From contig JACQZQ010000030.1 in the NCBI GenBank assembly GCA_016213785.1, forward strand, positions 1 through 62,415: 62,415 nt of DNA, written 5' to 3'. The notes beneath the pieces were generated by a model. That model saw only the letters and a list, made by a program, of their open reading frames with translations, searched no databases and was not told the origin of the DNA. This DNA comes from Acidobacteriota bacterium (GTDB taxonomy: Bacteria > Acidobacteriota > Blastocatellia > Chloracidobacteriales > JADJPF01). Made by a program: the position numbers and the translations under genes. This document shows, piece after piece, positions 21,265 through 22,280 of this stretch (position 1 is its first letter; each line of letters starts with the position of its first letter).

Positions 21265-21338
21265 GCGAGAGTGGCGTAATTGGCAAACGCGCTAGTCTTA
21301 GAAGCTAGATTCTGTGGGTTCAAATCCCACCTTTCGCA
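21265..21338 (+). tRNA. tRNA-Leu(TAG) with short variable loop
   Basis: Acceptor GCGAGAG/CTTTCGC, loop CTTAGAA. The variable region is only 5 bases (ATTCT) instead of the long class II arm expected for bacterial Leu tRNAs. Confidence 0.85.
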
Positions 21339-21365
21339 TTCTTTTATCTTTCTATCTATAGCTTT

Positions 21366-21437
21366 GCGGGTGTAGTTCAGTGGCTAGAACATGAGTTTGC
21401 CATACTCAAGACGTGAGTTCGATTCTCATCACCCACA
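21366..21437 (+). tRNA. tRNA-Gly(GCC)
   Basis: Anticodon stem TGAGT/ACTCA with loop TTGCCAT. Acceptor GCGGGTG/CACCCAC has a C-A mismatch at the second pair. Confidence 0.88.
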
Positions 21438-21446
21438 TTAAATTAT

Positions 21447-21522
21447 GAACTCGTAGCTCAGACAGGATTAGAGCATAAGTTTCCTAAACTTAATGTCGTA
21501 GGTTCAAGTCCTACCGAGTTTA
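21447..21522 (+). tRNA. tRNA-Arg(CCT)
   Basis: Acceptor GAACTCG/CGAGTTT, anticodon stem TAAGT/ACTTA with loop TTCCTAA. Its 5' half is nearly identical to the Arg(CCG) gene at 21150, which suggests duplication within the array. Confidence 0.92.
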
Positions 21523-21523
21523 T

Positions 21524-21598
21524 GCTGAAGTGGTGCAATTTGGCAGACACCTACGTCTCAGAAGCGTAGTTATAAGGGTTCAAGTCCCTTCTTCGGCA
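21524..21598 (+). tRNA. tRNA-Leu(CAG) with short variable loop
   Basis: Acceptor GCTGAAG/CTTCGGC, stem TACGT/GCGTA with loop CTCAGAA, variable region of 5 bases (GTTAT). It begins one base after the previous tRNA ends. Confidence 0.85.
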
Positions 21599-21610
21599 CT
21601 TAAATTTCCT

Positions 21611-21683
21611 GGATCCGTAGCTCAGTTGGCAGAGCAGCTGGCTTTTAACCAGCGAGTCGCAGGTTCGATTCCTGCCGGATTCA
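21611..21683 (+). tRNA. tRNA-Lys(TTT)
   Basis: Acceptor GGATCCG/CGGATTC, anticodon arm CTGG/CCAG with loop CTTTTAA, canonical T-arm GCAGG/CCTGC. Confidence 0.94.
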
Positions 21684-21686
21684 TCT

Positions 21687-21770
21687 GCTAATGTGCTGGA
21701 ATTTGGTAGACACAGGCAACATTTTAAGCCGGGCTTATAAGCCGTAAGGGTTCGACTCCCTTCGTTAGCA
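21687..21770 (+). tRNA. tRNA-Leu-like with disrupted anticodon arm
   Basis: Acceptor GCTAATG/CGTTAGC, T-arm AAGGG/CCCTT and a long variable arm (GGCTTATAAGCC) look like class II Leu. The anticodon stem pairs poorly: GGC/GCC encloses a 10-base loop containing ATTTTAA, so the anticodon cannot be assigned. It may be decaying or recoded. Confidence 0.6.
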
Positions 21771-21779
21771 GAAAATTTT

Positions 21780-21852
21780 GGATCCGTAGCTCAGTTGGCA
21801 GAGCATACGCCTCTTAAGCGTGAGGTCACAGGTTCGATGCCTGTCGGATCTA
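21780..21852 (+). tRNA. tRNA-Lys(CTT)
   Basis: Acceptor GGATCCG/CGGATCT, anticodon stem TACGC/GCGTG with loop CTCTTAA. Very similar to the Lys(TTT) gene at 21611. Confidence 0.93.
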
Positions 21853-21862
21853 TCTAAATTTT

Positions 21863-21937
21863 GCTGGAGTGGTGAAATTGGCAAACACATACGTCTTAAA
21901 AACGTAGCATTTAAGGGTTCAAATCCCTTCTTCAGCA
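21863..21937 (+). tRNA. tRNA-Leu(TAA) with short variable loop
   Basis: Acceptor GCTGGAG/CTTCAGC, stem TACGT/ACGTA with loop CTTAAAA, variable region of 6 bases (GCATTT). Confidence 0.85.
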
Positions 21938-21949
21938 TTAAAAATACTT

Positions 21950-22025
21950 AGACCCATAGCTTAGTCTGGTTCAAAGCAATCGACTCATAATCGATAGATC
22001 GTAGGTTCAAATCCTACTGGGTCTA
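21950..22025 (+). tRNA. tRNA-Met(CAT), elongator type
   Basis: Acceptor AGACCCA/TGGGTCT with a paired first position, stem ATCGA/TCGAT with loop CTCATAA. It could alternatively be Ile(CAT) read after lysidine modification. Confidence 0.88.
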
Positions 22026-22029
22026 TTTT

Positions 22030-22105
22030 GCGGATGTGGCGCAATCTGGGTAGACGCGCAACGTTGAGAGCGTTGTTATTGAAGGTTCAAATCCTTTCAT
22101 CCGCA
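22030..22105 (+). tRNA. tRNA-Leu(GAG) with short variable loop
   Basis: Acceptor GCGGATG/CATCCGC, stem CAACG/CGTTG with loop TTGAGAG, variable region of 5 bases (TTATT). A gene-free 101-base spacer follows. Confidence 0.85.
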
Positions 22106-22206
22106 TTACTCTAAAGTTAGTTTCTAGTTAATCCAACTTAACTTTTAACTTAATTTAGGAATAAAATTCTCTCAAAAACTAGATTATCAGATTAAGGTAT
22201 TTATAA

Positions 22207-22280
22207 GCAGGAGTGGTGTAAATGGCAAACACACAAGCCTCAAAATCTTGATAGTAAGGGTTCAAATCCCTTCTTCTGCA
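22207..22280 (+). tRNA. tRNA-Leu(CAA) with short variable loop
   Basis: Acceptor GCAGGAG/CTTCTGC, stem CAAGC/TCTTG with loop CTCAAAA and a C-T mismatch next to the loop, variable region of 5 bases (ATAGT). Confidence 0.8.

Follow-up and report, generated by a model that had tools for sequence, protein, structure and literature searches.

Leucine tRNAs lacking the long variable arm in supplementary tRNA arrays of Acidobacteriota and cyanobacteria

How leucine tRNAs without a long variable arm come to stand in a bacterial genome, and whether such tRNAs serve translation, are the questions raised by the tRNA array studied here. According to a review, animal mitochondria are the only exception to the long arm of tRNA-Leu and tRNA-Ser (PMC9976931). 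The array lies in the window, by which we mean the whole stretch of 62,415 nucleotides analysed, one contig of a 6.4-Mb acidobacterial genome. It occupies positions 20700..24554 (+ strand) and contains 38 genes called by ARAGORN, plus an fMet-like gene (22687-22759), which scores slightly above the Rfam cut-off, and a Leu-like remnant. An earlier note, made from the letters of the DNA, described five Leu tRNAs with short variable regions in this array. Both ARAGORN and Rfam find the five genes at the positions given in that note, with Rfam tRNA scores of 46.6-69.0 bits (gathering score 29), and the description was borne out. Thus tRNA-Leu(UAG) (21264..21339), tRNA-Leu(CAG) (21524..21599), tRNA-Leu(UAA) (21862..21938), tRNA-Leu(GAG) (22029..22106) and tRNA-Leu(CAA) (22207..22280), all on the + strand, have variable regions of 5 (ATTCT), 5 (GTTAT), 6 (GCATTT), 5 (TTATT) and 5 nt (ATAGT), respectively, and at 5-6 nt none of them has the long arm of a class II tRNA. 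Folding with thermodynamic parameters only gave a clear full cloverleaf for only some of the five RNAs, with modest z-scores. The comparative evidence presented below suggests, with a probability that we put at roughly 0.7, that the five genes encode true leucine tRNAs belonging to a supplementary array, which would be charged by leucyl-tRNA synthetase (LeuRS) and used in translation when expressed.

The array carries its own internal control. SerRS needs the long arm of tRNA-Ser, and bacterial tRNA-Tyr also keeps one. In agreement with what the earlier note had stated, reading of the genes showed that the array Ser and Tyr tRNAs retain long variable arms; they comprise tRNA-Tyr(GUA) and three tRNA-Ser genes located at 20700..21126 (+ strand). 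Its description of a Leu-like gene with a long arm and a disrupted anticodon arm also proved correct: this remnant (21687..21770, + strand) scores 27.9 bits, under the Rfam tRNA cut-off, is not called by ARAGORN and has an anticodon stem of 3 bp, and its long arm, its acceptor stem and A73 are intact. The array is supplementary, as the rest of the genome also has genes for all five Leu isoacceptors and most of the other isotypes. Together with a mini-cluster of Trp(CCA), Ser(UGA) and Lys(UUU) genes on another contig (C105:76480-76770, locus L042 of this genome, G000), which provides exactly the Trp and UCR-Ser decoding absent from the main array, it decodes 60 of the 61 codons under generous wobble. 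The single codon missing is AUA, which one of the CAU tRNAs could read. This coverage supports a role in translation. Two further features of the array were noted. tRNA-Gln(UUG) (23373-23448) has a Leu-like D-arm and retains the Gln features U1-A72 and G73. Upstream of the first tRNA gene (20570-20695) are two strong hairpins, the second of which is terminator-like and ends in a T run; the two could pair with each other through GGGCAAC (first hairpin) and GTTGCCC (second), which makes an attenuator conceivable. A promoter scan of the array region gave no excess over chance.

The short form might have been a trait of the lineage, and the earlier note had named short chromosomal Leu tRNAs as the observation that would make it one. 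This is ruled out. All five Leu isoacceptors are also present on other contigs of the genome (C79, C125, C31, C30 and C85), and there their variable regions measure 13-17 nt; array Leu(UAG) and chromosomal Leu(UAG) are 85% alike when the variable region and anticodon are excluded. The same length of 13-17 nt was found in 26 of the 26 chromosomal Leu tRNAs read in this genome and in six other array-bearing genomes, a partial recovery since these genes were found by an exact D-arm pattern, and one that leaves out three cyanobacterial Leu-type genes with an apparent intron after the D-arm. Among 396 Acidobacteriota genomes, a Leu-type D-arm and T-arm were separated by the long spacing in 391 and by the short one in two, by a strict pattern that recovers only one of the five short Leu genes of the window. 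The two short-spacing matches were the window itself and a Leu(CAA) gene in another tRNA array. Short-arm Leu tRNAs are thus essentially absent outside arrays in these 396 genomes.

To place the window in context we used 18 related arrays from Blastocatellia and cyanobacteria, many of which adjoin a Ro60-like gene (see below) and which are not independent samples. Their 65 Leu tRNAs have variable regions of 5 nt (43 genes), 6 nt (nine), 7 nt (three) or 9-17 nt (ten), that is, 55 of the 65 fall at 5-7 nt. Ser arms are retained in all 25 Ser tRNAs of these arrays (15-21 nt), and the Tyr variable region measures 13-20 nt in eight of ten calls. The remaining two are identical, were called as Tyr(AUA) and probably do not represent Tyr tRNAs. 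Myxacorys, Oculatella, a Lyngbya and a Kovacikia plasmid have the short form in each of the five Leu isoacceptors, and short Leu tRNAs also occur in phages, so that the short form is not unique to this locus. Related arrays are also carried by Nostoc and Calothrix plasmids, where the flanking DNA that was read contains no Ro60-like gene. These plasmid arrays appear to form the family of the Anabaena trn operon, and the Nostoc-type arrays homologous to that operon, read as its relatives, have short Leu genes. The trn operon itself, the one array for which a stress response is known, is silent under standard conditions, is induced by translation stress and aids survival (PMC10272220). The window array, with its 38 genes in one large one-strand cluster alongside a chromosomal set, shares with the trn operon of Anabaena sp. 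PCC 7120 (delta plasmid) the character of a supplementary one-strand set of 20-odd or more tRNA genes, and similar arrays on Nostoc plasmids contain short-arm Leu tRNAs and, in most cases, an HNH gene. Unlike the Anabaena-type arrays, it lies on an acidobacterial contig with ordinary metabolic genes, has another gene order, stands beside a Ro60-like gene and contains Leu genes that resemble acidobacterial Leu.

In class I tRNAs, positions 13 and 22 are paired and positions 45-46 are mostly purines. The short array Leu tRNAs depart from this on both counts. Positions 13-22 are unpaired in most of them (C-A in 30, G-A in 12, A-A in six), as they are in chromosomal Leu tRNAs, and a T-A or T-G pair was found in only seven of 57 short array Leu calls. 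Positions 45-46 are mostly U, and G at position 46 is present in 15 of 43 short array Leu tRNAs versus 182 of 268 non-Leu array tRNAs. Most short Leu tRNAs therefore have a class II core with a U-rich linker in place of the arm and are not true class I tRNAs. Of the 'class I bodies' that the earlier note had ascribed to these genes, the short variable region stands and the class I core does not. Some array Leu(UAA) genes have U-rich variable regions of intermediate length (9, 10 and 12 nt), which look like half-eroded arms.

The essential elements for E. coli LeuRS are A73, A15-U48, G18G19 and A20a, and in that species neither the sequence nor the folding of the long arm correlates with leucylation, armless tRNA-Leu variants staying active (PMC9976931). 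As far as they could be checked, the known identity elements for bacterial LeuRS are all retained in the short Leu tRNAs. A73, U8, A14 and A15-U48 are present in 65 of 65 Leu tRNAs of the 18 arrays (A73 in five of five in the window), and GG is present in every array Leu D-loop listed. The pair A15-U48 occurs in only 166 of 370 non-Leu array tRNAs, and is thus not a general feature of array tRNAs. C2-G71, an antideterminant against SerRS in E. coli (PMC9976931), was found in 55 of 55 short array Leu tRNAs. At the neighbouring end of the acceptor stem, Leu genes of nine cyanobacterial arrays (L141, L142, L150 and L160-L165) have A1-U72 or G1-U72 in 30 of 31 cases; G1-C72 is present in all 26 chromosomal Leu tRNAs. 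The stems of 55 distinct short Leu genes are paired at 98.7% of positions, compared with 69.4% after partner shuffling; kinship among the sequences inflates these figures, and several pair types occur at most positions nonetheless. The Rfam scores and this covariation rule out chance or mis-annotation as the source of the short Leu genes. A search of the genome yielded a single bacterial LeuRS above the family cut-off, open and full length, which rules out a second, dedicated enzyme. From the kept identity elements, the single LeuRS and the dispensability of the arm in E. coli, we infer that the host LeuRS charges the short array Leu tRNAs. Of the alternatives raised earlier, the one that the host LeuRS tolerates short bodies is favoured on these same grounds. 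The other two, charging in a different way and no use in translation, are less likely given that the stems pair, the identity elements persist and 60 of 61 codons can be decoded. Animal mitochondrial tRNA-Leu likewise has no long arm and is recognised by LeuRS via A73 and A14 (PMC9976931). The present case differs in that it is bacterial and that the short tRNAs exist beside long-armed Leu tRNAs presumably served by the same LeuRS.

Comparison of individual isoacceptors indicates how often the arm was lost. Leu(GAG) is long (14 nt) in one Blastocatellia array (G005) and short (5 nt) in another (G014), with 92% identity elsewhere in the gene. Leu(CAA) is likewise long in G005 and short in G014 (87% alike elsewhere), and Leu(UAG) shows the reverse, with the long form in G014 and the short one in G005 (82% alike elsewhere). 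This crosswise pattern requires several losses (or regains) even within the class. The Leu genes of the window have best identities of 0.76-0.90 to acidobacterial Leu genes versus 0.63-0.76 to cyanobacterial array Leu genes, with 90% similarity between its Leu(GAG) and the short one in a related array, and the cyanobacterial array Leu genes are closest to each other. This suggests separate arm losses in Acidobacteriota and Cyanobacteriota, a history read from pairwise identities, since a tree of such short genes would not resolve it. A single inherited origin of all short Leu tRNAs across the phyla is disfavoured by these nearest-neighbour identities and by the crosswise orthologues, and arm loss looks like a real, repeated change rather than decay. 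Phages present a related picture. In viral contigs a Leu-type D-arm at short spacing is frequent, 39 of the matches read are tRNA-Leu, and nearly all of these have A73 and A15-U48. When phage genes were sampled with a pattern that targets other tRNAs, six of 34 Leu genes and none of 24 Ser genes had a variable region of 9 nt or less. About 140 near-identical records of T5-like phages contain a Leu(UAG) whose variable region measures 9 nt; phage look-ups with short sequences of Leu(CAA) and Leu(UAA) were negative. Phage tRNA-Leu therefore shares with the array genes a shortened region (9 nt in T5-like Leu(UAG), 5-7 nt in others) together with A73 and A15-U48, but the arm is retained in 28 of the 34 phage genes whereas it is lost in 55 of the 65 genes of the related arrays.

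Downstream of the array lies a conserved set of genes. The set (24579-30793) consists of genes for an HNH endonuclease, a 66-aa ORF, a Ro60-like protein, a VWA protein, a 288-aa protein of no assigned family and a ThiF-like protein with a weak match to the PRTRC ThiF model, and cyanobacteria and the 595-kb phage LR756511.1 contain most of these genes too. Relatives of the HNH endonuclease gene (24579..25127, + strand) adjoin most related arrays in Blastocatellia and cyanobacteria, and the 66-aa ORF (25203..25403, + strand) is conserved in Ro60-linked loci and in the 595-kb phage. The Ro60-like (Rsr-type) protein of 489 aa (26755..28224, + strand) is 46% identical to a huge-phage protein and 87% identical to that of the genome's nearest named relative, a Blastocatellia (Acidobacteriota) bacterium. 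Its match to vWA_Ro60 is sub-threshold (16.4 bits), and it matches the PHROG RNA-binding family 850 at E 3e-7. Relatives of the gene occur in Blastocatellia, in cyanobacteria and in the 595-kb phage, many with adjoining tRNA arrays; a scan of the viral_contigs set with the protein found no relative. The homologous gene at locus L074 (9807-12578, genome G014) has an in-frame interruption of roughly 400 codons, possibly an intein or another insertion. Between the 66-aa ORF and the Ro60-like gene (25451..26742, + strand) are about five Y-RNA-like units, in which tRNA-like modules are closed by long terminal stems, for example at 26279-26423 and 26569-26742 (folding z -5.3). Three of them are apparently permuted, the 3' half of the tRNA-like module preceding the 5' half, and two contain the module in normal order within the long closing stem. 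The YrlA match in this region is weak (29.8 bits versus a cut-off of 69). A 12-bp tandem repeat (GTCTACCCCAAC) at 26430-26513 separates the last two units. As in bacterial Ro60 (Rsr) and Y RNA systems, a Ro60-like protein thus adjoins RNAs with tRNA-like modules in a long closing stem; the window differs from those systems in its weak matches to curated models, its several units and its linkage to a tRNA array.

These data can be accommodated as follows. LeuRS would read A73 and the corner formed by the D-loop and T-loop (A14, A15-U48, G18G19) and would not require the long arm. The arm could then be lost from Leu tRNAs, and supplementary Leu genes would be free to lose it under relaxed constraint; the Ser and Tyr arms of the arrays would be retained because SerRS requires the arm and bacterial tRNA-Tyr keeps one. 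Individual isoacceptors would have lost the arm on several separate occasions, in acidobacterial and cyanobacterial arrays as well as in phage-borne tRNA-Leu. The one housekeeping LeuRS of the cell would charge the array Leu tRNAs, which would take part in translation when the array is expressed. Dispensability of the arm does not explain why chromosomal Leu tRNAs keep it almost without exception, and some cost or benefit must therefore exist: either the main set alone draws a small benefit from the arm, or loss of the arm is advantageous in the spare genes. A version of the latter, which we regard as possible but rather unlikely, is that arm loss was selected because it hides the spare tRNA-Leu from a factor that recognises the long-armed form, be it a nuclease, a toxin or a modification enzyme, and would let the spare Leu set survive an attack by phage, host or competitor. 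The recurrence of the loss in mobile or supplementary tRNA genes and not in chromosomal ones fits such selection, as do the linkage of the array to Ro60-like and Y-RNA-like RNA-surveillance genes that are also found in a huge phage and the response of the Anabaena operon to translation stress (PMC10272220). Against it, no arm-recognising enzyme was identified, the intermediate U-rich lengths of 9, 10 and 12 nt resemble gradual erosion, and most of the sampled phage Leu tRNAs (28/34) retain the arm.

Other explanations would deny the short Leu tRNAs an ordinary part in decoding. Arrays, the Ro60-like gene and tRNA-like modules are physically linked in two phyla and in a phage, which would fit array tRNAs whose main role is that of ligand or substrate for the neighbouring Ro60-like/Y-RNA particle, but Nostoc plasmid arrays with short Leu lack a Ro60-like gene in the flanks read and the near-complete anticodon set is without clear use except decoding, which makes this very improbable. 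It is still less probable that the array is useless and its short Leu genes are pseudogenes in decay. The array does contain at least one broken Leu-like gene (21687-21770) and the Anabaena operon is silent in standard conditions (PMC10272220), but pairing stands at 98.7% with compensatory variety, the identity elements are kept in 65 of 65 genes, and where one Leu gene does have a broken anticodon arm, that gene is long-armed. Least probable of all, in our estimate, is that the tRNAs carry another amino acid for deliberate misreading of Leu codons: their shape is unusual for Leu, but the A73 discriminator and C2-G71 disfavour SerRS, the missing arm deprives SerRS of its handle, and every Leu-specific core element is present. 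The reading that these are leucine tRNAs charged by the host LeuRS thus appears to account best for the features of the array.

Supplementary tRNA arrays and their stress response are already known. A literature search that did not reach the key papers on the Anabaena operon, in which prior notice is possible, found no description of systematic Leu arm loss in arrays, nor of arrays linked in two phyla to a Ro60-like gene. The pattern, in which Leu loses the arm, Ser keeps it and the core read by LeuRS never changes, fits the in vitro work on E. coli LeuRS. With both forms of tRNA-Leu side by side and one LeuRS, these bacteria provide a natural experiment on the purpose of the arm, one that is testable in cyanobacteria carrying such arrays. 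If the doubtful case of selection for arm loss were true, armless tRNA-Leu, by avoiding an enzyme or a quality-control step directed at the long-armed form, would be a leucine supply for cells or phages when the housekeeping tRNA-Leu is damaged. The question moves to why chromosomal Leu tRNAs retain their arm.
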